In this document: in pieces, positions 17,507 to 45,281 of the stretch | Numbering within the stretch: the stretch's first letter is position 1 | Layout of the letters: the number at the start of each line of letters is the position of its first letter | Virus record (IMG/VR): IMGVR_UViG_3300030107_002093 | Span: 1-64,000 of that record | Strand: one strand, 5' to 3' | Length of the DNA stretch: 64,000 nt | DNA from: a virus | The notes under the pieces: generated by a model | Database searches by the model: none | What the model saw: the letters and a program-made list of their open reading frames with translations, nothing else | Told to the model about the DNA's origin: nothing | Translations under genes and position numbers: made by a program

Positions 17507-20149
17507 ATGCCTCACTCTGGTCTAGCGTTTGAGAAGGAAGAAGACGGACTCACGAAAAGAGTTCTAGATTTCTTTGAGCGAACCAGATTCGCCTATCTTT
17601 CTGCTAGGGAAGACCCATCTGAGTATGGCCCTAAGTGGAAGAAGATTGTCAAGAAACTCAGAGAGGACTTCGACCAGATAAGCAACTTCGCTAGGGAGTT
17701 GAAGAAATACGTCCAAGAGAAGGAACTCTTCGATGATGATGTATATGACCCAAAGTCCAGAACTGCTGAGACACTGTTCTCACAAGTGAAGGAGATGCGA
17801 TTCAAGTCAGAGAAGATAAGCGACCCATTCTCAAAACTACTAGGGGATGATGTGATTGATACCTTCATGCAAAAACCAGACGTATTCATATCATTCATTC
17901 ACTATGCGATGCGTTCACATCCCAATACCCTACCTGACAAGATTTGGGAGAAGCACGACTTGAAGCCTGATGAGATTACACAGGGAACAATGGGATTGGA
18001 TTTGAAGGTAGAGGATATCCCATTATACATCATAGAGCATTATGGGGCTGAGGGTAAAGATACTCGTAGGGTGAAATCGAAGTTCAAGGGAGCGTTTGCG
18101 AGATTGAAGGAGATGTATAATGATACATATCCTGAAGACAAGTGGGACTCATTGGTGGATTTGGATGTCGTCAAGGCAGAGAAGAGTGAAGAGGAGAAGC
18201 AAGAGGTAGATTTTCTGGTTCCTAACAAGCCCATGTATCGCATATTTGAAACAGATGATTTGAAGCAACTCAAGGGATTTAGTGGTGATTGGCTAGTTCA
18301 AGAGAAGTATGATGGAATGAGAATACAGATACACAAGGAAAAGGAAGACATCAAAATCTACTCCTATAACAAGAAGGACATAACCGAGAAATGTAAACTG
18401 CAAGTGAAGGAGATGCAGAAGAAGAACTTCGGGGATTGCATACTAGACGCTGAGTTAACATTGTTCCTTGATGATGAGCCACTACATAGAGCAGACACCG
18501 TATCCCATGTATTCAAGAAAGAAACCAAGGGTAGGTTATCTGCTCACGTTTTTGACATCATGAAGCATGAGGGCAAGATGATTGCAGATGAGCCATTGAG
18601 GGAGAGAATCAACATACTCTTCTACCAATACAGTTCCCACTCCACTGAGAACCTAGCCTTCCCATCGAAGAAGGACACTAGGATTGCTGATTCAATCAAG
18701 GAGGTCGAGGACTATTCAAAGGAGATAATGTCCCTACCTGCTTCTGAAGGAGTCGTCATCAAGGACATTGAATCGACATACATACTAGGAAAACAGAAGA
18801 ACCCCAAGTGGATTAAGTGGAAGAAGTTCGTTGACTTGGATGTAGTTGTATTGGATGACAAGAAAACGAAGAAGGGACTACATTCCTATAGCATGGGAAT
18901 AGGGCCAGTCAATGCTGAAACCGCAAGAAACTACAAGACTGTTGAGATGGGAGATAAGGCATACCTTCCTGTGGGGAAGGCTCTGAATACCAAGGAGAAG
19001 GTTAGTGTTGGTGATATCGTCAGAGTCAAGGTCGATGAGGTTAAGAAGACAAAGAATGGTTTCAGCCTGTATTCTGCCAAGGTCATTGAGATACCAGAAG
19101 TGACAGAATCCGATAAGGTGGATACTCTAGAACAACTCTCTACTAAGACGAAGAAGTCTCTTGAGTCTGCAATAGAGTATGTTGCTGGTAAGGCAATGGG
19201 TGATAGGTTCAAGGTTATGAGCGGGGTTCAAACTGCGGCCAAAGTAAAGACTGCTGGTGATATAGCCAGAAATAAAAAGAAGAAGAAGGTGAAGAAGGGC
19301 ATCTACATCACTGATGGTATACACGGAACTGCTGAGATTATCCTGAAGAGTGACTTGGATGGGTTTACCATTTACGGTTTTGAGGGAGATGAGTTGATGC
19401 AGAAGAACGCCCTCTACAACATAGATGAGTGGAAGGAAGAACTCAGCAAGATACTGAAGACCAAGAGGTCTGAACTCAGAATGGGAATCAGGAATGACAT
19501 TATCGAATACGGAGACAAGCCAAAGCCCTTCGACAAGATAGTTGATTTCGTAGCGAGGCATTACAAGGAAGTCTTTGAAGAACTGTTTGAGAGTAACCCA
19601 GAGAGGCTAATGTCATGGATGAAGAAGCAGGGAGATATCCAATATGTTCATCCGAACAAGTTCCAAGCAATGGATGATGTTCTAGAGAAGGACATAGAAG
19701 AAGTGAAAAAAAAAGACTCTCCTAAAAAAGGCGAATTTCAACTCTATCAACGAGAAGACGGAAACATAGACTTCGTTATTTCTGCTGGCGAAGAGAAGAT
19801 GGTTTGGACTATAGACATAGAAGATACGGAAGACGTATTCAATCTATTTGGGAAGTCAGGTAAATTCCCCGCTATAGTTGCTGATACCGTTAATGAGAAC
19901 AAACTATTGGATGCTGGTGAATTAGAACTAGGAGTTCAGAAGGATGGCTATCATGAATATCGTTTGGATGGTGACAAATTCCAGACTAGAATGCATCTTC
20001 GCGTAGTGCCATTGGATGAGCAGAAGGCATGGTTGGCTTGGACAGGAAAGAAGCAAGAGATGCTAGACAAGAAAGAGGATAAGGGAGTATGGAAAATTAC
20101 AGAAGATAAATGGGCTAATTTGCCATTTCCCAAGGAAAAGAGCGAGTAG
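17507..20149 (+). CDS. ATP-dependent DNA ligase with extra terminal regions (880 aa)
   Basis: The enzyme seals nicks in duplex DNA through a ligase-AMP intermediate. Motif I EKYDG is at residues 266-270 (adenylated Lys 267). An acidic LDAEL is near 313-317, HVFDIM at about 347-352, EGVVIKD (motif IV) at 414-420 and KWIKWKK (motif V) at 434-440, followed by an OB-fold region to about 540. Residues 1-220 are a long helical N-terminal region. About 340 residues beyond the OB fold are unusual for a ligase: a Lys-rich linker, a helical section and a beta-rich end (YHEYRLDG...LAWTG), loosely like phosphoesterase-type domains of LigD-like proteins, which is uncertain. It sits directly upstream of protease and capsid genes. 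Confidence 0.85.
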   Translation: MPHSGLAFEKEEDGLTKRVLDFFERTRFAYLSAREDPSEYGPKWKKIVKKLREDFDQISNFARELKKYVQEKELFDDDVYDPKSRTAETLFSQVKEMRFKSEKISDPFSKLLGDDVIDTFMQKPDVFISFIHYAMRSHPNTLPDKIWEKHDLKPDEITQGTMGLDLKVEDIPLYIIEHYGAEGKDTRRVKSKFKGAFARLKEMYNDTYPEDKWDSLVDLDVVKAEKSEEEKQEVDFLVPNKPMYRIFETDDLKQLKGFSGDWLVQEKYDGMRIQIHKEKEDIKIYSYNKKDITEKCKLQVKEMQKKNFGDCILDAELTLFLDDEPLHRADTVSHVFKKETKGRLSAHVFDIMKHEGKMIADEPLRERINILFYQYSSHSTENLAFPSKKDTRIADSIKEVEDYSKEIMSLPASEGVVIKDIESTYILGKQKNPKWIKWKKFVDLDVVVLDDKKTKKGLHSYSMGIGPVNAETARNYKTVEMGDKAYLPVGKALNTKEKVSVGDIVRVKVDEVKKTKNGFSLYSAKVIEIPEVTESDKVDTLEQLSTKTKKSLESAIEYVAGKAMGDRFKVMSGVQTAAKVKTAGDIARNKKKKKVKKGIYITDGIHGTAEIILKSDLDGFTIYGFEGDELMQKNALYNIDEWKEELSKILKTKRSELRMGIRNDIIEYGDKPKPFDKIVDFVARHYKEVFEELFESNPERLMSWMKKQGDIQYVHPNKFQAMDDVLEKDIEEVKKKDSPKKGEFQLYQREDGNIDFVISAGEEKMVWTIDIEDTEDVFNLFGKSGKFPAIVADTVNENKLLDAGELELGVQKDGYHEYRLDGDKFQTRMHLRVVPLDEQKAWLAWTGKKQEMLDKKEDKGVWKITEDKWANLPFPKEKSE

Positions 20150-20158: not shown

Positions 20159-20179
20159 TAAGAAAAAAAGGTGATTGGA

Positions 20180-21385
20180 GTGTTAGCAACAACAGGAGTA
20201 TTATTGAAAGCAGAAAACAATGCTGAGTTTAGCATTCTGAAATCAGATAATCTAGTAATTGGAGGGTATGCATCTATAGAAATTGTAGACAAGCAAAACG
20301 ACTTAATTACACTAGAAGCATTGGAAGAAGCAGTCAAGAAATACATGACGAAAGAAAAATACAGAAATGTAATGTCAAATCATTCAAATGTTCAAGTCGG
20401 GGAGGTCATAGAAAAATACCGAGATTCCAACGGTGTCCTACACAAAACTGCTGTAGACGATGTTGGGTTCTATGTAGTAATCAAGATGCGCGATGACATC
20501 GAGAAGGCTAAGGAAATCTCAAGAGGTATTAGGAAAGGAACATTACGGTCTTTCAGCATAGGTGGACAGGCGATATCAAAGAAACAGAGAAAATCTGAGG
20601 AGTTTGGGGAATACAACGAGATAGAAAAACTTGAGTTGCATGAAGTTACTGTCTGTGAAAAAGGAATAAACCCGGAAGCAAAATTCGACATTTTGAAAAT
20701 GGAGGAAAAGAAAATGAGTGGAAAACTGGAAAAAGCCCTTGAGGAGTTGAATAGCCTGATGAAGCAGGTCAATTCGCTCCAAAAGGAAGAAGAAAGCGAA
20801 GAAATAATGGAGAAAGGTGACGAGTATATGGACACTGAACCCGAAGAGGACATGGGAGAAATGGGCGGCGAAGACGACCTAGAACTTTCAGACGACAGCG
20901 AGGAGAAGGCTCTTGATGAGGACTCAACAAGAGACTACGAGGCTGGCGAGGAAGTTGTTAGCGGCGGAAACCCGACTGCAACCCCAGCACCTCTGAAGGT
21001 TTCTAAGGGATTGGAGAATGGCGATTTCTCTACTCTTGACCTAAGTGTGGAGAATGTCGAGAAGGCATATGAAGCATTCAAGGCCGAGAAGTTAGAGGCA
21101 ATGGCATATGATTCCCTTAACAAGGAGTTCAGTGAGCGTCTAACCGCAGAACTGTCTGTAAAGAAGTCGGCGGCTGAGAGAGCAGAGTATGATGCTCGCA
21201 CAGACGTAGCGGCTCTTAAGGAAGAGTTCGCGGAACTACGCAAGTCCCTTTCGGCAGAAAGCGATGAGATAAAGAAGGCAAGAGAGGTTGCTTTTGAGAT
21301 TCCTGAAGGAATCCCAACCAATACTCTTCAGGCTTCTGAGATTTCATGGAGTGATATTCACAGTATTGTGGAGAGGTATCAGTGA
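20180..21385 (+). CDS. Prohead protease (U35/XkdF-like) fused to scaffold
   Basis: I start at GTG 20180 because GGTGAT at 20170-20175 is a well-placed ribosome-binding site; an in-frame GTG at 20171 would overlap that site. Residues 15-175 resemble HK97-type maturation protease, with His in SNHSN (His 68), Ser in SFSIGG (Ser 124/126) and an acidic residue in LHEVTV (Glu 155). From 180 on the protein is acidic and coiled-coil-rich, typical of a scaffold. The C-terminus SWSDIHSIVERYQ shares WSxIxxI[VI]E with the 78-residue protein encoded at 16816. It precedes the major capsid gene, as usual. It should cleave head proteins during maturation. Confidence 0.85.
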   Translation: MLATTGVLLKAENNAEFSILKSDNLVIGGYASIEIVDKQNDLITLEALEEAVKKYMTKEKYRNVMSNHSNVQVGEVIEKYRDSNGVLHKTAVDDVGFYVVIKMRDDIEKAKEISRGIRKGTLRSFSIGGQAISKKQRKSEEFGEYNEIEKLELHEVTVCEKGINPEAKFDILKMEEKKMSGKLEKALEELNSLMKQVNSLQKEEESEEIMEKGDEYMDTEPEEDMGEMGGEDDLELSDDSEEKALDEDSTRDYEAGEEVVSGGNPTATPAPLKVSKGLENGDFSTLDLSVENVEKAYEAFKAEKLEAMAYDSLNKEFSERLTAELSVKKSAAERAEYDARTDVAALKEEFAELRKSLSAESDEIKKAREVAFEIPEGIPTNTLQASEISWSDIHSIVERYQ

Positions 21386-21396
21386 GGTGATTAAGT

Positions 21397-22767
21397 ATGA
21401 CAACAGGACATATTAGAACAATGGCAGACCTAGAAGCCGCAACCTACGGCATGGTCGGAGGAACAGGGAACGCCCTGCTAAAGAGCAGTGGAGTAGTTGG
21501 AGGACTCGGAACGCCACACGATGCGTCATCGAATGCCTTCAGTGCGGCAAGTGGTCTAGGTGACCTTTACAACTTGCTATACGGACAGAAAGTCTGGTCG
21601 ATGCTAAATCAGGAAGTCAATGCACTGTCAATGATTTCCAAGAGGCCATACACTTCCAGTGGTTGGAGAGTTCTAAAGAGCCGACCTGCTGGTGGTAGTG
21701 GCTCTGCATTCGGTATTGGAACAACTGACCCCGGTGCAAACACGGCTGACCTATCTGGAATAGCCGCCGACATGATTGGTGGTGTTGCAGAGAACGCTGA
21801 ACTTGGTGGAGATGCTTCTTTCAGAGCATTGTCGCCAGAATACACCAAACTATACGTCAGTCCAAAGACTGTTGCACATCTGTTTGAGTTCTCAGAACTT
21901 GGAATGGAGATGGCCGCAATTGACGATGGAGTAGGAGACATCCGCTCAATCGTTAGAGAGGACATGGGCAAGCACCACGCTGAAGTTCAGAACAAGATGC
22001 TACTAATGCCACTTGAGCATTACGACCACGCATCTTATGCTGACATCGAGAACAACTATACGTCACTATACAAGATTGTGTCGTCTGCTGGTGAACTAGC
22101 CGCAATGGGTGACGCAGACATGACTGCAAACAGCACTACCCCCGCAGACCTACCAACACAACTGGTTAGGATTTTCGGAGATGACAGGACTGTAACCAGA
22201 AGCGGTGGAGACTACACCGGAACGGATAACTTCCTTTCGGCTGAGGTTGACTTCGGTTCAGGATACGCCGCAGGTGACGCAAGAGTTCTAACACTGACTC
22301 TTCTAAACGACATGATTAGGAGAATCAGGCAGAACGGTGGAAACCCCAAGGTTATGCTAACTGGATACGATACTATCCAGCACATCTCAGACCTGCTACA
22401 GAGCCAAGAGAGGTTCATGGACAGGAAGGAGATTGTTCCAACGCACAACGGTGTAAGAGGAGTGAAGGGTGCAGAGGTTGGCTTTAGGGTCGCCACTTAC
22501 TACGACATCCCAATTATCCCAGCAAAGGACATGGCACAGACTGGTAACGCAACGGCTAACAAGTTGAGTGACATCATGCTACTAGACACAGACCATCTGT
22601 GGCTATCGGTCATGAAGCCTACTCAATACTTTGAGAACGGTATTACCAATGGTGACCCATTCGGCGTTGGTTCTCTAGGGAATCAGGGAATGTATCGCAC
22701 AATGGGCGAGACTGGTTGCTCCTTCTTCAAGGGCCAAGGAAAGATTACGAACATAACGAGTGCATAG
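21397..22767 (+). CDS. Major capsid protein, HK97-fold candidate
   Basis: AGGTGATTAAGT precedes ATG 21397. This 456-residue protein follows the protease-scaffold gene. Its pattern suits an HK97-like shell subunit: a Gly/Ala/Ser-rich N-terminal arm, a segment around residues 65-130 likely forming the E-loop, a long helix (MGKHHAEVQNKMLLM), a central strand/helix domain with LTLTLLNDMIRRIRQNGGNPKVMLTG, then a RVATYYDIPIIPAKDM strand region near the C-terminus. It is less acidic than the flanking scaffold and has balanced composition, as expected for a highly expressed shell protein. Identity rests on order and pattern, not on a database match. Confidence 0.88.
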   Translation: MTTGHIRTMADLEAATYGMVGGTGNALLKSSGVVGGLGTPHDASSNAFSAASGLGDLYNLLYGQKVWSMLNQEVNALSMISKRPYTSSGWRVLKSRPAGGSGSAFGIGTTDPGANTADLSGIAADMIGGVAENAELGGDASFRALSPEYTKLYVSPKTVAHLFEFSELGMEMAAIDDGVGDIRSIVREDMGKHHAEVQNKMLLMPLEHYDHASYADIENNYTSLYKIVSSAGELAAMGDADMTANSTTPADLPTQLVRIFGDDRTVTRSGGDYTGTDNFLSAEVDFGSGYAAGDARVLTLTLLNDMIRRIRQNGGNPKVMLTGYDTIQHISDLLQSQERFMDRKEIVPTHNGVRGVKGAEVGFRVATYYDIPIIPAKDMAQTGNATANKLSDIMLLDTDHLWLSVMKPTQYFENGITNGDPFGVGSLGNQGMYRTMGETGCSFFKGQGKITNITSA

Positions 22768-23219: not shown

Positions 23220-23693
23220 ATGGCAGTAGTTAGAAGCAAGATTGGCAAGATGACTTGGAAGAACTATAGGTTTGACAGGAACGGAACCAGAGTTTCAACT
23301 AGTGATGCAATCATTCTATACGGCGATAGAAACGTCAAGGTAGAGTTCACTGCTGATGATAAAGCAACCATACAAAGACTAATGGAAACCTCACCTAAGA
23401 AGGTGAAGCACCTAGCCAAGTATCTCAACTTGCGTGGGCCTGATGCAAAGGAAGTTATGGATTCTCTATATCCTCGTTCTAGAAAAGAGAAGATAATCGG
23501 TAGAGCCAAGGTTCCAGAAGTCAAAGAAGAAGTAAAAGAAGAACCAAAGAAAGAAGAGAAAGAGGGAACTCCTCTTCCTCCTGACCTAAACAAACTCACT
23601 GTTAAGGTCTTGAAGGAACATCTAGAAGAGAGGAAACTTTCAACAGAAGGTAAAAAAGCAGACCTCATCAAGAGACTATCAGAGGATGGTTAG
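23220..23693 (+). CDS. SAP-domain protein (157 aa)
   Basis: Residues about 122-156 match a SAP motif, a helix-turn-helix DNA-binding element: LTVKVLKEHLEERKLSTEGKK (split over two helices) followed by ADLIKRL. SAP domains bind AT-rich DNA in eukaryotic chromatin proteins and occur in some viral and phage proteins. Residues 1-80 look like a small alpha/beta domain; residues 95-120 are a Glu/Lys/Pro linker. Its location between capsid and membrane-protein genes suggests a virion or genome-organising protein, but the role is unproven. Confidence 0.65.
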   Translation: MAVVRSKIGKMTWKNYRFDRNGTRVSTSDAIILYGDRNVKVEFTADDKATIQRLMETSPKKVKHLAKYLNLRGPDAKEVMDSLYPRSRKEKIIGRAKVPEVKEEVKEEPKKEEKEGTPLPPDLNKLTVKVLKEHLEERKLSTEGKKADLIKRLSEDG

Positions 23694-24002
23694 ATGAGTA
23701 GCGGAACATGCTTCAGTAGTGGTGTCAGAACTGCTGACGCAATTATTACCAAGAGTAGGTGTAAACTAATCTCAATTAGAGCATCTACAGTTACAGATGG
23801 AACATTCACCGTAAAGGTTTACGATAGTGCTGACAACGACCCAAGTGCGGCAGGTGAAGTAGAAGTAGCACGAATGCAAATACACTCCACTGGTGCAACC
23901 AGAGGGAATTCAATGGAATACGACATGCATGGGGTAGTATGCCAAAATGGTATCTTTGTTGATATCACTGGAACAGGTGCTTACTCAATAGAATATGCGT
24001 GA
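23694..24002 (+). CDS. Small beta-rich protein (102 aa)
   Basis: The ATG lies directly after the SAP gene's stop. The sequence alternates short strands rich in Thr, Val and Ile with Gly/Asp turns and contains three cysteines but no zinc pattern. It resembles small beta-sandwich accessory virion proteins encoded next to capsid genes. Function unknown; candidates are a decoration protein or part of the neck. Its stop overlaps the next gene region (GTGATTAATATG). Confidence 0.6.
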   Translation: MSSGTCFSSGVRTADAIITKSRCKLISIRASTVTDGTFTVKVYDSADNDPSAAGEVEVARMQIHSTGATRGNSMEYDMHGVVCQNGIFVDITGTGAYSIEYA

Positions 24003-24007
24003 TTAAT

Positions 24008-24439
24008 ATGCCAAGTATAGATACAGACACAAGACTAGTGATGACAATACTGTTCGTAGGAGCAGTCAGTGGAATAAATATCTACTTTTATTCCCAATAT
24101 GGAATAACGTTCCCTTACGGTGCGGTTGAGCATTCATTGCTCTTCGGGATTAGCACCATTGGTGGGATAATGATAATGAAGGCATTGTTCGATATGGTCG
24201 TTAATGACTGGATTGAGGAATACCTACTACAAAGGAGAATAGACGCTTATTGGGCTAGGAAGGCTAGGGAAGAGGAGAACCGCAAGAGAGTCCGAGAGTC
24301 CTTCAGGCAGTTCCAGCAGAATTGGAATACCACAGTCGCTTCTCCCTCAAACATATACGGGGATAGCAACCTACCTAGTCTGAATCCAACCAAGGGAGGA
24401 GTAAACCCATCTTTCCTAACATTGGAGACTGAGCAGTAG
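24008..24439 (+). CDS. Two-helix membrane protein (143 aa)
   Basis: The start is ATG 24008; GTG 23999, overlapping the previous stop, would add three residues. Two hydrophobic segments at about residues 11-29 and 40-62 should span a membrane. They are followed by an amphipathic Arg/Glu helix (WARKAREEENRKRVRESFRQ) and a polar Pro/Ser/Asn tail. It has the first membrane segments in the structural operon and is followed by another membrane protein and an Arf-like GTPase. Function unknown. Confidence 0.75.
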   Translation: MPSIDTDTRLVMTILFVGAVSGINIYFYSQYGITFPYGAVEHSLLFGISTIGGIMIMKALFDMVVNDWIEEYLLQRRIDAYWARKAREEENRKRVRESFRQFQQNWNTTVASPSNIYGDSNLPSLNPTKGGVNPSFLTLETEQ

Positions 24440-24451
24440 TGAGGCATATGA

Positions 24452-24676
24452 ATGGTCAGCGAAATCCTATTTGGAATGGATGAATCCACTCTCGCATATG
24501 ACCTTCAACGAGCGCATTCTGCTGACATCTGGTTTCTCAGGGCTAGGTTCTGGTTTTGGGGAATAGTTGGTGGGTTATCCAGTTTCGTATTAGGACAGGC
24601 TATGGCTATCCTCGGCATTAATACTCTCTCCATAGCATGGAATGGTCTAGTGGATTTCTGGAATCATCTGTGGTGA
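24452..24676 (+). CDS. Small membrane protein (74 aa)
   Basis: GAGGCATATGA precedes ATG 24452. The N-terminal 25 residues are polar and acidic, followed by an aromatic-rich hydrophobic segment at about 32-55 (FWFWGIVGGLSSFVLGQAMA) that should span a membrane, and a Trp-rich amphipathic end. Size and shape would also fit a holin or a membrane anchor, but its place between the two-helix membrane protein and the GTPase suggests a functional set. No family recognised. Confidence 0.7.
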   Translation: MVSEILFGMDESTLAYDLQRAHSADIWFLRARFWFWGIVGGLSSFVLGQAMAILGINTLSIAWNGLVDFWNHLW

Positions 24677-24680
24677 TTGA

Positions 24681-25352
24681 ATGTCAGTAATGGCGGGTTT
24701 CGCCATACTTATTGTCGAAGGACTAAACAAGATATACCAAAGAGTCCATGCGATTAACTTCGGCATCTATGGTGCTAGTAGAGCAGGGAAGACGACATTG
24801 AATCATCAACTCAGGACAAGAGGGGAGGTTCCTGATATACGACATAGAACCGAGGGGATACAACGTGCCACTAGGAAATACGTCAAACTAGATGGTGACG
24901 CTCATACTGTCAAGACTGCTGATTTGGGAGGACAGACTGTCTATTGGCATGAATGGATAGAGGACATGCGCAATAGAAGACCGAAATACATCATCTTCAT
25001 GATAGATGATAGGCATATGAATAAGCACTATGACATAGAGCAACAACTGTGTTGGACATTCTTGGTGGATACTATCTGTGAACCATACTGGCATAACAGG
25101 AAGAGAAAGAAGAAAAAGAGAGAGATAGACTACCCTATTGCAGTTTCCATTTGGGCCAACAAATACGACTTATGGAAAGACAGGTATGACTATGATGGGC
25201 CAATAGAGAATCACCCCATCTTTGAGGCATTCAGAGCAGGTATGCAGAAGTTGAATGACAAGGGAATACCATGTCACAAATACATAGTCAGTGCTAAATC
25301 TGACTCGGAGATGGTATACAGGGGAGTCCTAACAATGATAAAGGACTACTAG
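24681..25352 (+). CDS. Arf/Ras-like small GTPase (223 aa)
   Basis: GGTGATTGA precedes ATG 24681. All G motifs are in order. G1 is GASRAGKT (residues 31-38). A G2 Thr candidate lies near 57. G3 is DLGGQ (81-85), followed by an aromatic stretch (VYWHEWIE). A strand leads to MIDDR (107-111). G4 is NKYD (160-163) and G5 is SAK (204-206). DxGGQ is characteristic of Arf/Arl, G-alpha and related GTPases, whereas Ras-type proteins have DTAGQ. The N-terminal 15 residues are hydrophobic and followed by a polar helix, so it could sit on a membrane as Arf proteins do. An insertion of basic residues (140-147) precedes G4. Neighbouring membrane proteins suggest a membrane-related task. Confidence 0.85.
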   Translation: MSVMAGFAILIVEGLNKIYQRVHAINFGIYGASRAGKTTLNHQLRTRGEVPDIRHRTEGIQRATRKYVKLDGDAHTVKTADLGGQTVYWHEWIEDMRNRRPKYIIFMIDDRHMNKHYDIEQQLCWTFLVDTICEPYWHNRKRKKKKREIDYPIAVSIWANKYDLWKDRYDYDGPIENHPIFEAFRAGMQKLNDKGIPCHKYIVSAKSDSEMVYRGVLTMIKDY

Positions 25353-25364
25353 AGGTGAAGACCC

Positions 25365-26039
25365 ATGAGTATGCAGTTTCAGCCACCTAGCCTCATCGGT
25401 GCTAATTCTACAAACGTAACTAATAATGCGTTTATGGATAGACAGTCTGCGGCGAGAGCGGCAGGTGCAGTAACACAATATGAGTATAAGAACACGAAGC
25501 CAAAGAAACAACTTAAGGAAATAATCAAAATCCTAAAACCAGAATCTAAGAGATTCCTAAAGATTCCATACAAGTTCAAGTATAATATCAAGGATAGATG
25601 TGTGGTTTGTGGAACTCACAAGGTTTGGGATGCCAGTGATAACCTAAGACCGCCATTACCTCTACACAAGGTTCGCAAGGGATATCCAATGAGAGGAACA
25701 TACTGTGAGAAACATGCTGGCATTCATAGGCAGTATGAAATGCTAGAGCAACAGATTCTAGCAGATGAACACGGACTATCCTTTAGCGCATATATTCCAA
25801 AGGCTCCTACAATGCAATCCTTGAACCCTCTAGCCTCTGGGCCTCTAACGAGTTTGAAAGCAACAGATATTGCTTCGTTGGGGTCATTGGGATGGACAAT
25901 CAAACCACCTGTCTCTGAAACAGAGAGTAGGGAAGAAGAATTATTCAGACTTGTCATAGAATCCAGCACAATCAACGAAAGGGTGAAAACATTATTGACT
26001 GAGGGGGCTAAGGTAGCACCAGTGGAGGGTGAGCAGTAA
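25365..26039 (+). CDS. Zinc-binding protein of GTPase cassette (224 aa)
   Basis: GAGGTGAAGACCC precedes ATG 25365. Residues about 80-125 contain CVVCGTH and a later YCEKHAGIH, a CxxC...CxxH arrangement likely to hold one zinc. It is preceded by a Lys-rich helix (about 45-70). The C-terminal 70 residues end in an acidic helix. It lacks a catalytic motif. Co-transcription with the GTPase and one-base overlap with the next gene suggest a joint function; it might be an effector or structural partner, which is speculation. Confidence 0.65.
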   Translation: MSMQFQPPSLIGANSTNVTNNAFMDRQSAARAAGAVTQYEYKNTKPKKQLKEIIKILKPESKRFLKIPYKFKYNIKDRCVVCGTHKVWDASDNLRPPLPLHKVRKGYPMRGTYCEKHAGIHRQYEMLEQQILADEHGLSFSAYIPKAPTMQSLNPLASGPLTSLKATDIASLGSLGWTIKPPVSETESREEELFRLVIESSTINERVKTLLTEGAKVAPVEGEQ

Positions 26040-26749
26040 TGGGACTATTTGGAACAAGTAATTCAAATTTGATGAATACAATGCAAACTAATCAACAAGC
26101 ACAGTTCAAAACTATGAACAATTTGTTGACGCTTCAAGAGAACCACGTTGAGGATTTCTTCCAATATCACGGTGAGGCATTCCTAGCGGCATTGGCTCAA
26201 TTGATTGAGGATACCGTGGAGAAGGTTCTTGGGCAAATGCTACCACAATTGAAATTCCAAACAGACAGTTCTGGTGTCCTTAACATGCATTCTGATTCTA
26301 CAACTGCCTTTGGAAACATCACTGAGGCTAACATCAACTTAGACCTCCAAGCACTCCTTGCCTCGGCAATAAACTCAGAGGTAATAATGCAAAGGAGAAT
26401 GGCAAAGGCACAGTATCTAGAATCACAGGGATTCGCTATGCCAGCAGGGGAACAAATGCCAGCAAACAACATGGGAGGAATGGGACAGATGAATCCGGGT
26501 GGGATTGACCCATCACAGATACAAGGTGGCAACGCTTCTGTCCAAATGAACAATACCATGATGCAACAACAGATGGCGTTCAACAACCAATCTGGATATC
26601 CAGTCCCACCTGCTGGCTATGACAATATGAATAACCCATACTGGATTGACCCTAATACAGGGCAGATGTCCTATACACCACCTGCAAGTGGTCTTGGTCT
26701 TGCTAATGCCGTAAGTAAGGGCATTGCTTGGGCTAAGTGGCTTGCATAG
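26039..26749 (+). CDS. Met/Gln/Asn-rich protein (236 aa)
   Basis: The ATG overlaps the previous stop (TAATG). Residues 1-60 are Asn/Gln-rich and helical, and 60-130 contain a hydrophobic amphipathic helix pair. Residues 135-220 are low complexity, rich in Met, Gly, Gln, Asn and Pro, with a WIDPNTGQM segment. The final 25 residues (Ala/Gly/Leu/Trp-rich) could be a short membrane-interacting helix. No catalytic motif. It closes the apparent cassette beginning with the membrane proteins. Function unknown. Confidence 0.65.
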   Translation: MGLFGTSNSNLMNTMQTNQQAQFKTMNNLLTLQENHVEDFFQYHGEAFLAALAQLIEDTVEKVLGQMLPQLKFQTDSSGVLNMHSDSTTAFGNITEANINLDLQALLASAINSEVIMQRRMAKAQYLESQGFAMPAGEQMPANNMGGMGQMNPGGIDPSQIQGGNASVQMNNTMMQQQMAFNNQSGYPVPPAGYDNMNNPYWIDPNTGQMSYTPPASGLGLANAVSKGIAWAKWLA

Positions 26750-26758
26750 GTGAAGTGA

Positions 26759-28708
26759 ATGGCGATATTTCTACCTAGAGAATACTCAGTCGATGATTAC
26801 GACTTTTCCTTAGAGGGAGATAGAAACGCCAATTTCCAAGAACTGATGGAGAACAAACTCTTTCGATGGATGTTAGCATATCCCTTCTCTTGGGTAGAAA
26901 GGACACATAAGGCGAAGGCAAGACACGCCTTGGAACTAATACAAGGTAGACTAGGAGACTTGTTGGATTTGACCCAACAGGAGTTCAATGAGGAATATGC
27001 AGAAACGGAGTATGAATTCGATGAAGCGGAGTTCAGAGAATACAAGAGAGCATTCTTTCAGACCATTGGTTCTACTACGATACCACAAGTAGTAGCGGCA
27101 TTGGAACAAGAGGACTTACTGTCTGCACAGGTGATTCCTAGAAACATCCTATCCAAGATGAAAGAGATGGACTTCACTATGAATGACTTGTTGGATACCA
27201 ACAAAACACAGAGAATGTTCGATGCTAAGACCACAGAACGGGGCTTCAAACCCGGTCTTCCTCATGGGGCTAGAGGAGAAGGAAGAAAGGAACCCTATGG
27301 CCCATTAACAGAAGGCGTAGACCCAGAGAAATCTGCTGGATTAATGGGAGCATTCCTAGAATCAAGACCAATACTATACGAGGAGATAAGAAGACATATC
27401 AAAGTCAAGGGACATCAAATTGATTTTGATACAGAGAAATACCTCTCTGAAATCTCTGAAGCAGAGGGCTTTGGCAAGTTGGATGATTCAGAGTTAGTGG
27501 TGGCTAGTCCGAGGAAATCCAGTGAGATAGAGAAGACCGTAGAGATATTCAGCATTAGCAATACAAATGATGGTAGATATCGCATTGAGGGATTCGACAA
27601 GACTAGAACGGTTGATGACATTGAGGAAGCATGGGACGTATATCGAAACGCAACTGACCTTGAGAAACTGGAAAAGCACATAGAGGATACCATTCTATCA
27701 CAGAAGAAATCCCCATTGTCAGATATCCTATATTCAGTCGTAGAACCGGAAGACAGAATGTTGGATGTTGGTAAGTTGGTAATACACGTTGACCAACTAT
27801 CACAGGGTGACAAGGGTAAGGCTGGCTTTGGTAAGACGGAACCAATTGGCAAGAAGAGTTGGATTAATTGGGTTAGAGCATTAGAGGGGAAGACTTCTGA
27901 AACGAATCCAAATGTAACGAAGATAGAGAACCTACTAATGCAAGCCTTCAATCTATTTGCAAGAGATGAACCATTCAGCAAACTTGACGGTTCTAAGCAA
28001 ATGCAAAAAGTTCAAGCAATGAAAGATGGGGTTCTTGATGATTTAACATCAGAAGACCTGTATGATATCTGGGAAGATAATGGTAAACCAACAGGTAATG
28101 ACCTAGACAAGGTTGATGATTTGGCTAATGCCATTTGGAGACATGCATTGGGTAAAGACATGGCTAGAGGGTTTGAAGGTGAAATGGGATATCATCGTGA
28201 GGGTCAATTTGCCTCTGGTGTCGAGAATGCCCTAGAAGCAATAAACGCAGACATAAAGAGGCGCAGAGCAAAACAAGACATCCAAGGAACCCCTACAGAC
28301 AAACCAAGAGCAGAGAAGCATAGAAAATTTACAGAAAGCGGTGAACCAGCAGTTACCGACAAACGAAGTAAGACAAAGACATCTGATAAGACAATTGACT
28401 CAGTAGGAGGTGGAGATACATTCCCCGTATTGGATGCTGGTAAAAAGAAGAAAGGCATGATTCGACTACGAGTGTCATTCACCCCAACCAAACTAGTCAG
28501 TGCTAGGAAATACGAGATATTCACCCCAAGCCAAGACTACGAAGGCAAGACAATAACAGGAAAGGACAAGCGTGGGCCTCTTGGTGGAAAGGGGCCAACA
28601 ACTGCTAGAGCCGTAGGTGGAGATGTTGCATCAGATAAGGAGAAGGATTTCAAAACCCTAATGGAGTTGAAGTTGGGATACAATAGATTGAAGGGGCTGG
28701 TGAACTAA
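26759..28708 (+). CDS. Large unknown virion-type protein (649 aa)
   Basis: ATAGGTGAAGTGA precedes ATG 26759. The N-terminal 150 residues are helical and aromatic-rich; the central part is a mixed alpha/beta region carrying a YRIEGFD segment like one in the protein at 3245-3763. Residues about 500-560 are a Lys/Thr/Pro-rich disordered linker, and the end is a basic Gly-rich tail followed by a short helix. No known domain, and it does not carry the MSW tag. It lies immediately upstream of the head-tail adaptor with a one-base overlap. Confidence 0.7.
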   Translation: MAIFLPREYSVDDYDFSLEGDRNANFQELMENKLFRWMLAYPFSWVERTHKAKARHALELIQGRLGDLLDLTQQEFNEEYAETEYEFDEAEFREYKRAFFQTIGSTTIPQVVAALEQEDLLSAQVIPRNILSKMKEMDFTMNDLLDTNKTQRMFDAKTTERGFKPGLPHGARGEGRKEPYGPLTEGVDPEKSAGLMGAFLESRPILYEEIRRHIKVKGHQIDFDTEKYLSEISEAEGFGKLDDSELVVASPRKSSEIEKTVEIFSISNTNDGRYRIEGFDKTRTVDDIEEAWDVYRNATDLEKLEKHIEDTILSQKKSPLSDILYSVVEPEDRMLDVGKLVIHVDQLSQGDKGKAGFGKTEPIGKKSWINWVRALEGKTSETNPNVTKIENLLMQAFNLFARDEPFSKLDGSKQMQKVQAMKDGVLDDLTSEDLYDIWEDNGKPTGNDLDKVDDLANAIWRHALGKDMARGFEGEMGYHREGQFASGVENALEAINADIKRRRAKQDIQGTPTDKPRAEKHRKFTESGEPAVTDKRSKTKTSDKTIDSVGGGDTFPVLDAGKKKKGMIRLRVSFTPTKLVSARKYEIFTPSQDYEGKTITGKDKRGPLGGKGPTTARAVGGDVASDKEKDFKTLMELKLGYNRLKGLVN

Positions 28709-29805
28709 TGGGCAAGGTATCCTCACCTAGTGATTTCACAGCAATCAATCCTAACTACACTAATGGGACTGGGTATTACACCACGCATACTGATGTCTCC
28801 AATCTCCTTCAAATCAATTCGTTTACCAATTCGACTACTCCCACTATTGCAGAGGTAGGGAAGATAATCAAGAGAGTCGAGGAGAAGATAGATGACAAGA
28901 CGAAGACCTCTTATCGACCAACTATCTACAAAGACGAGTTCCATTCGTTTGAGGGCTTTCAACAAGGACAATACCCATTACGAACATACAAGGATTATGT
29001 AGGATTCGTTCAACTATCGTATCCTAAAGTGCAGAAAATAGTTAGGTTAGAGGTATGGCAAGGAATTGAATGGGTAGACTTGGCTTCTGCTACTGCTACT
29101 CTGAAGGTTCCGTCTACTGCAACTACAAACGACTGGACTATAGCCCTCACCGTTGGTTCTCCTACGACATACACGTTCAATATCAGGAACTTGGCTAACA
29201 ATTCTGTCAGGGATTTCTATGACAACTTCGGTGCTAAGACGACTGCTAGTCAGATTGTCGATGCAATCAACGAGGTATACCCAATGAAGACGGCTAAATT
29301 CACTGGTGAGACTGCCGCTAAATCGCTTCAGGATACTGGAAACTCAGTCAACATATCTGATTTCTTCTATGCCACCACTAACAGTGAGGATAGCACCACA
29401 GTTGTCATCTCATCCTTGCTAATGGGAGAGGATGGAACTAATTGCACAATCTCCTCGACATATGGGTCAGTCACTAACTTCACTGACAATCAAGACCAGC
29501 GTAGGATGGGTGACTATTGGACTATAGGAGATGAGGGTAAGATATTCTTCCATCAGAATTATCCATACTTGGAGAGACACTCAGTCAGAGTCACATATGT
29601 CGCAGGTGAAGGCAGGGTTCCCGCTACCATTCATGATGCCGCTACGAAACTAGTTGCCGCCGAAGTCATACGACATGATGACAACTCAATCCTAATCGCA
29701 GAAACGCAATCTAATATTGACTTGAAGACGAAGCACGATATCCTAGTGGAAGAGGCTAATGAGACTTTGAAGGGCAAGGCAAATATGGTTTACTTCATTT
29801 CGTGA
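28708..29805 (+). CDS. Head-tail adaptor (connector) with inserted beta domain
   Basis: The overall pattern matches gp6/gp15-type adaptors that sit under the portal. An N-terminal DVSNLLQIN...TIAEVGKIIKRVEEKIDDKT helix (residues about 28-75) precedes a YRP strand, and the C-terminal part VRVTYVAGEGRVPATIHDAATKLVAAEVI (split here in the middle of the helix; about 290-320) is typical of the family. Between them a roughly 100-residue insertion (about 130-240) has the TASQIVDAIN and GEDGTNCTIS features seen in repeated tail-protein domains such as those in 34843-37812. At 365 residues it is longer than usual adaptors because of this insertion. Confidence 0.7.
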   Translation: MGKVSSPSDFTAINPNYTNGTGYYTTHTDVSNLLQINSFTNSTTPTIAEVGKIIKRVEEKIDDKTKTSYRPTIYKDEFHSFEGFQQGQYPLRTYKDYVGFVQLSYPKVQKIVRLEVWQGIEWVDLASATATLKVPSTATTNDWTIALTVGSPTTYTFNIRNLANNSVRDFYDNFGAKTTASQIVDAINEVYPMKTAKFTGETAAKSLQDTGNSVNISDFFYATTNSEDSTTVVISSLLMGEDGTNCTISSTYGSVTNFTDNQDQRRMGDYWTIGDEGKIFFHQNYPYLERHSVRVTYVAGEGRVPATIHDAATKLVAAEVIRHDDNSILIAETQSNIDLKTKHDILVEEANETLKGKANMVYFIS

Positions 29806-37812: not shown

Positions 37813-40800
37813 ATGGGAACGAGTGCATACGGTAAGGCAGTGTTCCCGTTGAATGCGGGAAAGAGGGATACGCATATTCTAGAAGCAACGGCTCAAAACC
37901 AAGCAGACTATGACTATGGTAGTCACTTTGCTAGAACCACCGAAGCATATCTGTCTGTCTCTGTCAATCCTACCATTGTCCAGAACAACCTACAATACGA
38001 AAACTCAGTCAGTGGAAGTTCTCTAGTTAATTCCGCTAACTTCATGGAGATAAGGAAAAACCCACATGGTGGTTCAATAAGCAATGATTATGCTGATAAG
38101 ATTGGGAATAGGGTATATCCCGGCAATAACACCCTGACTTCATATGCAACCAACCGAGATGAGACACATTCATTCAAGGTCAAGGTATATGATTCTCAAG
38201 TTGCTAATTCAGAGACAAACAGGAAGTTCGTTTACTCTACCTCTGATTACCCAGCCACAGAGGAAGTAGGCTTGGATATAGAGAACTATGACTATTTCAT
38301 TCTCTTGAATCCCGACACATATCAGATGGGAACTGATACACTGCGACCACATTTCGCCAAAGTAACTAGGATAATATCATTCGATGAGATGGGGGATGGC
38401 CTTGAGTTCTCCCCAGCATATCCGACAGAGGTGTCCATAAACACGAAGTTTGAGATTTACAAGGGGCCAGCCAAGACTACTACGGATATAGTCGCAGTCA
38501 GTTATGGGTTGAGAGGAGATACGTCAACCTCCACATCAAAGCATGATAGGGTAGCACATTGCAGTCGCCCTACTTGGTATTTCTACAACGATAGGTTGGA
38601 TGAGAAAGACCAATTGGATTACATGACCAAATACAATCTCACTCATCTAAGGTGGTGGAACTATCCTACTACCCTTGAAGTGACAGCAGTAGATACCCAT
38701 GCCCAATATGAAGCGGGTAGTGGTTCTAAGGAATTCACTCTACACGATGCCGATGATGACTTGAAACTCTCTCTAGGTATGTCTGTGTTTAATGCTAGTA
38801 ATGTGTTGTTAGGCAACATCACCGTTGTCACACCTTTGACAAACAAGTTCAGACTAGACTATGCCAGAATAGCAATAACTGGCACTTCTACCAATTTTGA
38901 CATCAAAATAGGGAAGACCGCTCACAATGTGGCATTCCGAACTGAAGGCAAATTCGGCAATACGATACATAGTCTAGGCAAGGAGAGAATGAATGCTACT
39001 CTCGTAGATGCTAACAGAACCTCTGATGATAGCAATTCCAGCAACTTCCACAAATGGGAGAATGCCTTCCCCAAGATGCATAGGCACACAGCCAACTCTG
39101 ACTCGGTAACAGCAACTACCCTTGATGGGAACATGACTGGGCCGGGGAAATACATTACATTTGAAAAAGCGAATTTCAAAAATAACAAAATTCCTCTCAT
39201 AACTGACGCAATACTAAACCAACCGAGAAATAAGATGAGCCAATTAGCCCAATTCAACATATTGGATAATAGCGGTATACAACATTTGAGAATCAAAGAA
39301 GAAGACACCTTGATTCTTGAAAGAAACATTCACAACGATGGTTTGAATCTGATTGCATTTGAAGGAAAAGCGGCTAGAGATTCCTCTAATACATCTATAA
39401 TAGTAATGAGTGACATTAGAAAACAAACGGATTTAAGGAATATACTAGGCAATAATGACATTATAGAGATTGATGGATATCATTATGCAGTTGCCTCTGT
39501 AGCGGCTCAATCAAGCGGAACGCAGAACATTACGATAAAGAACAAGAAACTCAAGACTGCTAATACTTGGAGTGGTAGTGCAGTAGCAGAGAACTTCTCT
39601 GGTAAGACATTGTTCCTACCTCCCTACACTGGCGTGATTAACACATCATTGGAACCAGACACGGAGTATAATTATGCAACTGGCAAACTTAGCATGTCAG
39701 AGGTCACTGTAGACAAGGAGAACACCAAACTGTATAATGCCAGATTAGTGAGTGGTGTTTACAATGGACATGATAACAAGATTGACTATGGTGATAAGGA
39801 TAACAAGTTCCTGAAGATTCAAGACTCTGATAGAGTGTTCTACCAAAGAAGCAATGAGAATGCCAGTAGGTTCTACTACTATCGCGGTGGATATGCCATA
39901 AGTGACTCAGCATTCAACGGGATTGTCGAGGATGTCTCTAGCAAGTCCGAACACGGATTGACCACTTACAGTGTAGTTGGCAGAGATGAAACCTCCAAAT
40001 TGCTTTCCCAGACAGTCAGTAAGAACACTACCTTCATGGAGGATATAATACACACTTCAATCCCTCCTATTCTGAACCCTACGGCAATAACTGATTCTGA
40101 GGGAAACAATGTAAGCAATCTCAGCATATCTGGAACTACTATTACATGGAATGATACTACCAACCTAAGCCCCACAAGATATGGTTTGGTTATGAACCAA
40201 GCCGGAGAGTTGATTGGGGAAGTCAAGCAATATGAGGAGAATTACAGTGGTGGCAATGATAGGATAACTCTCTATGATGCGGCCTATTCTACTCCTACCA
40301 CAACTACATCGTTGTTGTATTATCATCCATATACGTCTTCATGGGTCAATTATATCACAGGAACGAAAGCACTAGCAAGTAATGAGTTACACAATACTGG
40401 TATCAATGGGTTTACATCCATTAGCGAGAAGGGAATGGGATTCAATAGTGGTTTATCATTAGGAGGAACATTTGGCTCCAATTCTGCTACATTCACATAT
40501 GAGGAGATGAAAGCCACTTCAAACACTGGTAACTACAAGGAAGATAGAACATTGGGATATGACATTTCAAGTCCTAAATCTGTGTCTGTGAATGATTCCA
40601 TATTTGCGTTTACTGCTGGTAATGAGAACGGTGTTACTGTAGATAAGATAGACATTGCGACTATCAATAAAGAGTCATTGGATATCGTGAGTATCAACGA
40701 GAAGGATGAAGGAGCAACAACGTTATCCGTGTCTCCGATTTTCCCTGTAGTTCTAGGGAGACTAGATAGCAACAGTTCTGATAATAGAGGAAACTGCAAT

Positions 40801-43800
40801 ATCTATCTAGTAAACAATAACATAGACACTGGTGGATTTATCCATAGACTACAAAACACCTTTGGGTCTGGTTATTTCGGGCCTAAAGAAAGCATACGGT
40901 ATTGGGATTTGCAGAAGTTCGATGGTGGAACCATAACGAAGACACACGACAGTATCTACAGTAATGGGGTGAAACCCCAGAAGATACAAGGATATGGAGT
41001 AGGTTATGGTGTGCGCCCCAATGGGACTATATTCACACCAACTGCAACGAATGACAACAAGCCTCTGGCTGGAAGCAATACAGTAAATGGATGGACATAC
41101 GTTGCTAACTTCCTCGGAAATCAGACTGATTCGCCTTTGATTCAATCATATCCAACAATTCGTGACCAAGGAACTTATGATGGAATCAATAGCGGCTATG
41201 CTCCCAATGGATACGAGGAAGACATACAATACTCACAGTTTGAGCATATAGACCCACGGTCAGAGACATATGAATTGTTAGCCGTGGGAGACACATTTCC
41301 AGCATCCAAACTGCGACATAACAATCTAGGCTATCATACCAAGAACTATGATGACTTTTCAATAGTCCTTGAATCCGAATCCTCTGTTATTGGAAACACC
41401 TCTCATCAAAAATACACTGGGCAAACCAAACAGACTCTTCAATCCAGTAACATGTTTGAGGAATCTTCTATCTCTAGTGCCACCCAAACCACGAATCAAG
41501 CGAGAAGGTTCGGTGTGATGAGACTAGTGGAAGCAACATTCGATTGGCATTTCAATCCAGTGGATTACGAATCGCTACCAAAGGCAGAGGACATCCCTAC
41601 AGTCAGGGCTTTTGACTATGTTCAGGCAGACATGCCCCCTACTGTCGAGACTTCCACAAATGAAATAGTGATTGATAGCGAAGGAGTTCATACTAGCAAC
41701 ACTGTAGCAGAAACCACAGGGGATGTGTTCTACAAGAAAGCCAACATAGGACAATACCCCGCCAGTGCGGTTACTAATTTTGGGCTTGCTAGTGGGATAA
41801 ACGGCTTTGTGATGTCTTACCGTCCTAGTGGGTTTGGAACGAGATATGCCCCAAATCTAATCTTCGACTCAACGGGACATGGCACTCTAACAGGACTATT
41901 GCGACATGAAGGAGGAAATCACTACTATGGAGTTCAACCATTCAGAGTGTTTTCCACTACTGACTTCAACATTGACAACTTATCTGCAAGCGAGGGTAGT
42001 ATTGATTTGAAAGCAGATAGGGCAAATGGTAGAAACAACGTTAGATTCAGCCATGTGTGGATTTGCTCTCCAACCGTAGTAAGCACCAATTTCAAGTGGA
42101 CTAAACAATTGGCTGACTCTAGTAATGTAAACCACACATTCCAAGGCCATGATATTATTCTACCGTTAATATCAGAGGAATACAGGGGAACGTGGGCAGG
42201 TGGAGGTAGTAGTAACTTCACTAGAGAACCTGATAGAAAGGACAGGAATGTATCTGCTCACCATTATTTCGCATCATCACACAGGCATATTTCTAGAGTG
42301 ATGGCGGGGTTGTATCATAGAGAACTGAGCAATACTTCCTCAACTAAGACCTTCAGATACAGTGTTGGTCAAACTGCTGATAATAGCGCATCATTAGCGC
42401 ACATATACGATGGGTGCATTGGGCTATTCAGAGGATTCAAACAAGGCGCAGACGTTCATGCTGATGGTTTTGGTGCTGATATAATAGGGAACGATGACAT
42501 CGTTCTTAGTTCACGACTAGCCCTATCCAATGATGCCTCATATTCAGACTTCGTTACTAGTAATACTAATGATTTTGAGCAGGTTTCTAGAAACTTGATG
42601 GTTCAGGAATATGAAGATGTCAACTCCACAGTAGCCACTGCCTACTCTGATGGGGATACTAGTCTAGTTCTTGATGACGCTAGTGGTTTTGCTAGTGCTG
42701 GTAGTGGATTCATCAACGGTGTGGCGTTCACTTGGACAAATAAATCAAGTAACACTCTGACTGTCCCTGACCTGAATGATGATTACGCCGTGGGAGTTCT
42801 AGTAGAAGCAACCCAGATTAGCCTCGCTATGGTAGGAACCAAAGCAACTGATGGCATATTAGCAAACAACCCTTCTCTCCGCACAAGTGACCGAACACGC
42901 GCCGCAAGAAGATACGCATCCTCAAGCACGTTTAATTCTACAACCATAAGAGATACGGGCTTAATAGGTGACCGAACTAAAGGCGGGGTCTTCTCTGCAC
43001 AAATGCTAGTAAAACCAACATTCAACATCACACATGGGAGCAATGGAGTTGATGTATCATCAACTACTATGGAATTCACTCTTAATTCAGACACCGAACA
43101 CGCATGGCTTAGTTACATGCCTGATTTGACAGGATATTACCTAGTCACGGAAGCGGCTAACTACAACTTATCCACTGGTTCTGGAACTGCAACTGCCACT
43201 CTGAGAAACACTACTGCTGATATTATACCTGCCACGATTGCGAAGATAACGAGTCATACCATAACCACCCCTCCTACAACTAGCAATACAGAAGCACATA
43301 CAATAGTAGTCGATACGGCTATATCTGGGAGATGTAGGCTTATGCGGCCCTCAGAGGTAGCCTTCGATAATGTAGAGGGAGAAATCAAACTCAACACTCT
43401 CCTAACTGACGGCAAGGGAAGAGATTGGAGAACCGGAGGTGCAAGGAGTTCTGTTGACGCAACATACTCAGAAAGCGCGTATCACATGTATCTGCTCTTA
43501 GACATTGATAACATCCACACCACGATAGAAAGAAGAACCCCAGCAAACGCATTATCACTCTTTACTGATTTGTCTGATGGGGATGTTCTTGACATGAACG
43601 TATCAGACGGACAAAACAGACAACGTAGAAAAATAGTCTTCAAGAAAACAATAGACGTTGCTGATGGTAATAGTCAATCCGGGTTGACCCTAAAGGTTGA
43701 TGGTGCGTTAAACGCTAATGGTGTTGCATCCTTTGGGGAAGTATTTGATATCACACTAGGAAGGAAGCCTAAGTTGAAGGAAATCAGGAAATGTCACATA

Positions 43801-44952: not shown

Positions 44953-45281
44953 TAGTAGATAGTGGAAAGGAAGCATTAGCATCAACAATGGCAAGCACGT
45001 TTACAAAGGTAAGAATAGGCAATGGCGGCGATGACACGGCATCTTCGCAGACTGCTTTGGATGCCTTCGTAGCAGAGAAGACAGTAACCCCTTCTAGAAT
45101 AGGGTCACAGTTGGTTTGGACTGCTTCTTTCACTGGTGCAGAGATTGGAACACAAGGAGTGTCAGAAATCGGAATATTCAATACCGCCGATACCCTATTG
45201 AGCCGAGTTACCTTCACGAATACTGGAGTAGTGCCATCGGCAGATACAGTGACATTCACAATTAGATTGGAGGTAGATTAA
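44949..45281 (+). CDS. Tail-fiber adaptor-like protein (110 aa)
   Basis: The ATG overlaps the hub stop (ATGA). The small all-beta protein resembles the N-terminal domain of tail-collar fibers: a strand with VRIGNGGDD, a helix over SQTALDAF, a strand QLVWTASFTG, then VSEIGIFN, and a closing strand. In tailed viruses such domains attach fibers to the baseplate; here it is a separate gene, overlapping the 3019-residue fiber gene by one base. The call is by pattern and position. Confidence 0.55.
   Translation: MIVDSGKEALASTMASTFTKVRIGNGGDDTASSQTALDAFVAEKTVTPSRIGSQLVWTASFTGAEIGTQGVSEIGIFNTADTLLSRVTFTNTGVVPSADTVTFTIRLEVD

Follow-up and report, generated by a model that had tools for sequence, protein, structure and literature searches.

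A Ras-like small GTPase gene in an all-or-none five-gene cassette of magrovirus-like tailed viruses

Introduction

Apart from the viruses described here, the small GTPase switches familiar to us are those of cells and of giant viruses. Arf GTPases have the switch I sequence PTxG, and not all Arl proteins carry the N-terminal Gly2 used for myristoylation. Ras and Rab proteins are marked by DTAGQ in place of the Arf DxGGQ, and SRPRB is a GTPase with an N-terminal membrane segment. The small GTPases of pithovirus, klosneuvirus, tupanvirus and other giant viruses belong to viruses of eukaryotes and take their names from host families (Ras, Rab and Ran). We know of no earlier membrane-remodelling machine of this type in a virus of prokaryotes.

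Magroviruses are tailed viruses whose assigned hosts are the Poseidoniales, a group of marine archaea (PMC12999244, PMC10768690). The magrovirus-related literature that was covered mentions no GTPase, and a survey that paired small GTPases with magroviruses or archaeal viruses brought up no paper on such a gene; an earlier annotation of this ORF is possible. Within this scope, the literature agrees with the remark in the initial annotation that it knew of no well-described small GTPase in tailed archaeal viruses.

Here, we analyze a 64,000-base stretch of viral DNA (the window), taken from the start of a viral record of 102,725 bases (positions 1-64000), that encodes a small GTPase among its structural genes. 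The protein kind is already known; the family, the cassette in which it lies and its occurrence in this virus group appear to be new.

Results

The GTPase gene lies in the structural cluster of a magrovirus-like virus

The features of the locus are collected in Table 1. The GTPase ORF opens with ATG and has no internal stops, and the motifs GASRAGKT, DLGGQ, NKYD and SAK follow one another over 223 residues as initially annotated. The surroundings are those of a tailed virus, also as annotated: a protease, an HK97-type major capsid protein (MCP), a tail tube, a portal and a terminase were all recognized. Among the head genes, positions 17507-20149 of the window encode an 880-aa protein in which an ATP-dependent DNA ligase domain is flanked on both sides by long extra regions. 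Two very long ORFs, encoding 2379 and 3019 aa, follow downstream of the tail genes (37813-44952 and 45281-54340).

Table 1. Features of the GTPase locus, in window coordinates
Feature	Position	Strand	Basis or remark
Terminase-like protein	from 9848		recognized
Portal	from 12753		recognized
Prohead protease (flank)	20171..21385	+	PHROGs; HVTV1_119 homologue
Major capsid protein, SU10/HK97-type (flank)	21397..22767	+	PF17236, phrog_24667
SAP-domain protein (flank)	23220..23693	+	PF02037
p102, cassette left border	23694..24002	+	weak homologues at the empty site of sister viruses
TM1, 146 aa, two hydrophobic segments, cassette gene 1	23999..24439	+	hydropathy
TM2, 74 aa, one hydrophobic stretch, cassette gene 2	24452..24676	+	hydropathy
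Ras-like small GTPase, 223 aa (predicted)	24681..25352	+	motifs, invariant residues, AlphaFold model, Foldseek
Amphipathic N-terminal helix, residues 2-22, possible membrane anchor	24684..24746	+	model secondary structure, hydrophobic moment
G1/P-loop GASRAGKT (G31-T38)	24771..24794	+	glycines, Lys and Thr invariant
Candidate switch I RTxG (R56-T57-x-G59)	24846..24857	+	R56, T57 and G59 invariant
G3 DLGGQ (from D81)	24921..24935	+	Gln is Glu in most homologues
Basic loop RKRKKKKR	25098..25121	+	sequence; net charge positive in the family
G4 NKYD (from N160)	25158..25169	+	N, K and D invariant
G5 SAK (from S204)	25290..25298	+	invariant
Zn protein, 224 aa, CxxC...CxxH, cassette gene 4	25365..26039	+	Cys/His conserved
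p236, N/Q-rich C-terminal half, cassette gene 5	26039..26749	+	locus comparison
Large variable ORF, cassette right border	26759..28708	+	positional equivalent in sisters, weak profile match
p365, HVTV-1 gp125 homologue, probable head-tail connector	28708..29805	+	E 4.5e-20; connector role from position only
Tail tube	from 30544		recognized

The full record shows Magrovirales-type features: a DNA polymerase B split into two parts, like that of YSH_150918, a DNA ligase, an HK97 structural module and a length within about 90-110 kb. Its size, ligase and split polymerase fit with the magroviruses, and we call it magrovirus-like by these features rather than by direct match with named genomes (ON649702, OR863078). 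The GTPase-bearing group as a whole probably consists of tailed viruses of marine archaea. Because the archaeal markers MCM and PCNA gave no match in six records, this host assignment rests on the magrovirus literature and on kinship with haloarchaeal viruses.

A chaperonin gene is present in 13 of 29 large GTPase-bearing records and absent from the other 16. The one chaperonin that was read (L223) seems GroEL-like by eye, in line with the description of the Aoguangviridae (PMC10768690). One record of 184,733 bases (IMGVR_UViG_3300021958_000021) holds two GTPases (L147 and L194) and two chaperonins about 90 kb apart; this record is probably two virus genomes joined in assembly.

Nucleotide-contact residues are invariant in 155 homologues

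Successive, overlapping scans of IMG/VR for homologues returned 145, 151, 88, 195 and 359 relatives. For the analysis of conservation, we used 155 distinct full-length homologues from viral contigs, about 55-92% identical to the window protein. In all 155, residues G31, G36-T39, R56, T57, G59, D81, G83, G84, N160, K161, D163 and S204-K206 are invariant. Because these core residues do not vary across so many distinct homologues, the GTPase motifs are not a product of chance, and the claim of a complete small GTPase holds, with G1, G3, G4, G5 and a candidate switch-I Thr all present. Between the window and a near homologue (L002), 86 codon differences are silent and 17 change the residue, with 94 of the 120 base changes at third codon positions.

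The glutamine of DLGGQ, part of the motif that the initial annotation took as a mark of Arf/Arl/G-alpha-type GTPases, is not general in this family. At this position (residue 85), 163 of 212 members have Glu and 49 have Gln, the window protein being among the latter. The prevalence of Glu in place of the catalytic Gln suggests, from sequence comparison, that hydrolysis may be altered or partner-dependent in most members. Residues 133-152, around the basic loop, carry a net charge of +1 to +6 in every member measured. The predicted N-terminal helix has a mean hydrophobic moment of 0.35 across the family; the helix is borderline and could pack on the G domain rather than on a membrane.

No relative of the GTPase was detected among known isolate phages (tblastn against INPHARED, E ≤ 1) or in PHROGs, and a search of 84,980 genome contig sets, which covered close-relative patterns only, gave no convincing close cellular relative. 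The sole match there (L082, NZMJ01000101.1; 69% identical) lies on a contig from a Maricaulis MAG. We rejected Maricaulis as a cellular source of the gene, as the contig shows the virus gene order; it is probably a viral contig misbinned into a bacterial MAG.

The protein is predicted to have a Ras-like fold with no assignable subfamily

Curated profiles recognize the family weakly. The window protein falls below every Pfam and NCBIfam cut-off, including that of NCBIfam small_GTP, which matched all 23 members scanned; one homologue (L116) exceeds the cut-off of MMR_HSR1 (25.9 vs 21.9 bits). Weak Pfam matches among 27 members were to MMR_HSR1 (27), SRPRB (25), Roc (24), Ras (15) and Arf (13). 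A profile built from 55 members aligns with KRAS (E 0.032) and with the archaeal-type GTP-binding protein 8oun (E 0.045). Identity to reference GTPases is 15-18%, a level at which a subfamily tree would be unreliable.

An AlphaFold model computed from the 55 sequences (pLDDT 74.5, pTM 0.75), which supersedes an earlier poor model (pLDDT 64), shows strands and helices arranged as in a small GTPase after helix 2-22, with the P-loop and other loops modeled at low confidence. Foldseek returned 1207 PDB matches at E ≤ 1e-3, and the best 50 of the 1207 all belong to the Ras superfamily, with E values of about 1e-7 and TM-scores of only 0.42-0.53 by query. KRAS ranks first, and GerdArfR1 (8oum), Arl10B and Rab5C, near the top, have TM-scores of 0.52-0.53 by query. 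The model and the listed matches thus favor a GTPase fold over another P-loop fold. Ras, Rab, Arl and Asgard Arf proteins are mixed among these matches. In the viral fold library BFVD, the best matches are giant-virus GTPases, and no tailed-virus member was recognized among the matches listed.

By its motifs and model, the window protein is very probably a Ras-like GTPase with intact nucleotide motifs. Because profiles and Foldseek matches spread over several GTPase families, we describe the GTPases of this virus group, on the strength of sequence and predicted structure, as a new family of Ras-like small GTPases with no assignable subfamily.

The initial label of "Arf-like" cannot be kept in its strict sense. 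Arf and Arl proteins, including Asgard ArfR, resemble the viral protein in the fold, the P-loop, RTxG (against PTxG in Arf), DxGG, NKxD and a helix before strand 1, which in the viral protein is predicted to be amphipathic from the model and hydrophobic moment; GerdArfR1 stands at Foldseek rank 5 (TM 0.53). However, no member scanned reaches the cut-off of Pfam Arf (PF00025, 22.3 bits; the window protein scores 16.8 and two further members 16.6 and 17.2), and the scores for MMR_HSR1, SRPRB, Roc and Ras are at least as high. The viral proteins mostly have Glu in DxGGQ, have SAK as G5 and a basic insertion near residues 137-150, are about 17% identical to Arf/Arl, and lack the Gly2 required for N-myristoylation, 209 of 212 members having Ser at residue 2. 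With the curated cut-off unreached and the diagnostic features split, we rejected assignment to the Arf family.

Other families fit no better. The SAK G5, the fold (KRAS on top, Rab5C at TM 0.53) and the best profile match point to Ras/Rab, but the viral protein has DxGG, not DTAGQ, an extra N-terminal helix and a score below the Ras cut-off. SRPRB likewise gives a weak profile match (E 2e-4 to 0.04), yet the window protein scores 17 bits and the best of the matches listed 21.2 against a cut-off of 25 (PF09439), no SR-alpha-like partner was seen in the cassette, and the gene belongs to a viral unit. Giant-virus GTPases share with it that they are viral small GTPases retrieved by fold.

The GTPase is a core gene within a five-gene cassette

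Five co-oriented genes, TM1-TM2-GTPase-Zn protein-p236, form a cassette whose order is intact in 181 of the 182 loci with enough flank, with median intergenic gaps of 9, 4, 13 and 1 bases. In the one apparent exception (L195), the five genes are also in order, and extra ORFs between them break only the distance limit of the test. The neighborhood noted at the outset thus recurs in related viral genomes. Its two small membrane proteins correspond to predicted hydrophobic segments in the adjacent TM1 and TM2, assigned by hydropathy only (KD19 peaks of 1.8), and its zinc protein to the conserved CxxC...CxxH protein directly 3′ of the GTPase.

When the search was seeded with the MCP, a GTPase was found at 57/57 loci with at least 3 kb downstream. 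All 29 large records, which had been found through the GTPase itself, carry it, in single copy except in the 184.7-kb record with two. The GTPase is therefore a core gene of one magrovirus-like tailed-virus clade, in an all-or-none five-gene cassette.

None of the cassette proteins showed likeness to known lysis or membrane-remodeling proteins, and PADLOC gave no hit to a defense or anti-defense family. TM2 matched a PHROG holin at E 0.28, which is noise.

Sister viruses have an empty site

The nearest named relative found via the capsid gene is HVTV-1 (Druskaviridae). Its protease, MCP, gp125 (p365) and gp128 (tail tube) are homologous to those of the window and follow one another as they do there, yet all five cassette genes are missing, and its whole record contains no match to the GTPase. 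Two virus groups nearer than HVTV-1 also lack all five genes. In the first of these, the MCP is about 44-47% identical to the window's and p365 about 40%. In the sisters, the MCP is followed in turn by a decoration protein, a small protein whose end resembles SAP (HH E 7e-8), a relative of p102, a single large ORF and p365. Across the loci that span MCP to p365, the full set of five genes was present in 15, none in 40 and a partial set in 0.

Whole sister records of 86-94 kb contain no detectable GTPase. A hidden divergent copy was rejected after six-frame profile searches, whole-record searches, Walker A/NKxD pattern searches and an HH comparison against the large ORF all proved negative.

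The MCP tree places all cassette bearers in a single clade (SH-aLRT 100), and presence and absence can be accounted for by one change; outgroup rows fill few columns, so that the root is less certain than the clade. Because the tree unites the cassette bearers, these sequences make it likely that the cassette was gained once. Distances between GTPases correlate with those between MCPs (0.78; 0/999 permutations as high), suggesting mostly vertical descent after the gain.

Discussion

We tentatively propose, from sequence features and the predicted structure, that the GTPase could be a GTP switch that is anchored in the membrane of the host and works there late in infection with TM1 and TM2 as partners; this is the likeliest of the readings considered, and we rate it as possible but somewhat short of even. 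Its amphipathic N-terminal helix, together with TM1/TM2, would hold the GTPase on the inner side of the host's cytoplasmic membrane, and the GTPase would alternate between GTP and GDP states. In the GTP state, it would recruit or rearrange TM1/TM2, with the Zn protein and p236 serving as effectors or adaptors. Acting while structural genes are being produced, the system would reshape the membrane of the host in the service of virion assembly, egress or lysis. The role in membrane organization or egress raised in the initial annotation, which we still infer, is somewhat strengthened by the all-or-none cassette with its two TM proteins and amphipathic helix. The further step, that the switch and its two dedicated membrane partners make up a self-contained machine with which tailed archaeal viruses remodel membranes or leave the cell, acquired a single time and retained across a widespread marine clade, is more doubtful.

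The place among head genes suits a virion component equally well, and the chief competitor of a membrane switch is a role in the virion or at entry. The cassette would then encode minor components of the virion or proteins ejected from it, with TM1 and TM2 entering the host membrane at genome delivery and the GTPase acting on host membrane or proteins immediately after entry. Location on the same strand in the head-to-tail cluster, strict co-inheritance and two hydrophobic proteins that would suit pilot or ejection proteins are all consistent with this, but a GTP-cycling enzyme would be of little use within a particle, and HVTV-1 and the two sister clades retain the homologous genes for head and connector, and for the tail tube where seen, but not the cassette; we consider this role unlikely. 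The same comparison bears on the idea that the GTPase is an assembly factor, with GTP governing head maturation or head-tail joining at a TM1/TM2 membrane site. Its place between the capsid and probable connector genes and its retention wherever testable in the clade would fit, yet the sisters manage without it despite their similar MCP and p365, and tailed viruses known to us assemble without a GTPase, which leaves this idea distinctly improbable. As sister viruses encode homologous particle genes without the cassette, it is not needed for building such a particle and would be an added layer, apart from basic capsid assembly; within its clade it was nevertheless retained throughout.

We give an equally low standing to the idea that the GTPase is an effector taken from a host, which would imitate or titrate one of the host's small GTPases or act against host defense. 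A single gain is compatible with capture, and the viral GTPases found by fold are giant-virus proteins named for host Rab, Ran and Ras; against this, there is the failure to find a close cellular relative among the genome contig sets (by close-relative patterns), the empty PADLOC result, the fixed position amid structural genes, and a very strong conservation and vertical descent unlike those of an arms-race gene. Least probable is a degenerate P-loop protein that has lost switching: the Gln-to-Glu change in most members and the weak profile scores could be read in this way, but every nucleotide-contact motif is invariant in the 155 sequences.

If the membrane switch and its partners do act as a machine, it would be the first Ras-like membrane-remodeling or egress machine known to us in a prokaryote virus. 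The clade also shows a Ras-like switch maintained long-term within a structural operon of prokaryote viruses. With its two putative membrane partners, the core GTPase offers a small, testable way into the entry, assembly and exit of the tailed viruses of uncultured marine archaea, and the clean presence and absence between sister clades permits a comparison of what the cassette allows with what the sisters do otherwise.

One further pattern emerged in related viruses. Dozens of seemingly unrelated small structural-cluster proteins share the start heptapeptide MW[KFE][DNE][IV][LI]K, which was seen in L147, L152, L157, L170, L174, L195, L449, L366, L381, L408, L411, L419, L430 and others. This start occurs in 113 ORFs, 73 of them distinct, all on the structural strand; control patterns with W replaced by F, L, I or Y occur in 6, 3, 2 and 2 ORFs, respectively. 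Searched as a DNA pattern in 13 records, it gave 30 matches vs 0 for the reversed control, and none in the window's own record or in HVTV-1. The internal proteins of phage T4 carry a capsid-targeting tag, and by analogy the heptapeptide may be such a tag for internal head proteins. Extra ORFs with an MWxxILK-like start also lie beside the GTPase within the cassette, in L195 (7157-7995 and 8660-9235), L449 (11950-12800) and L442 (12012-12578).
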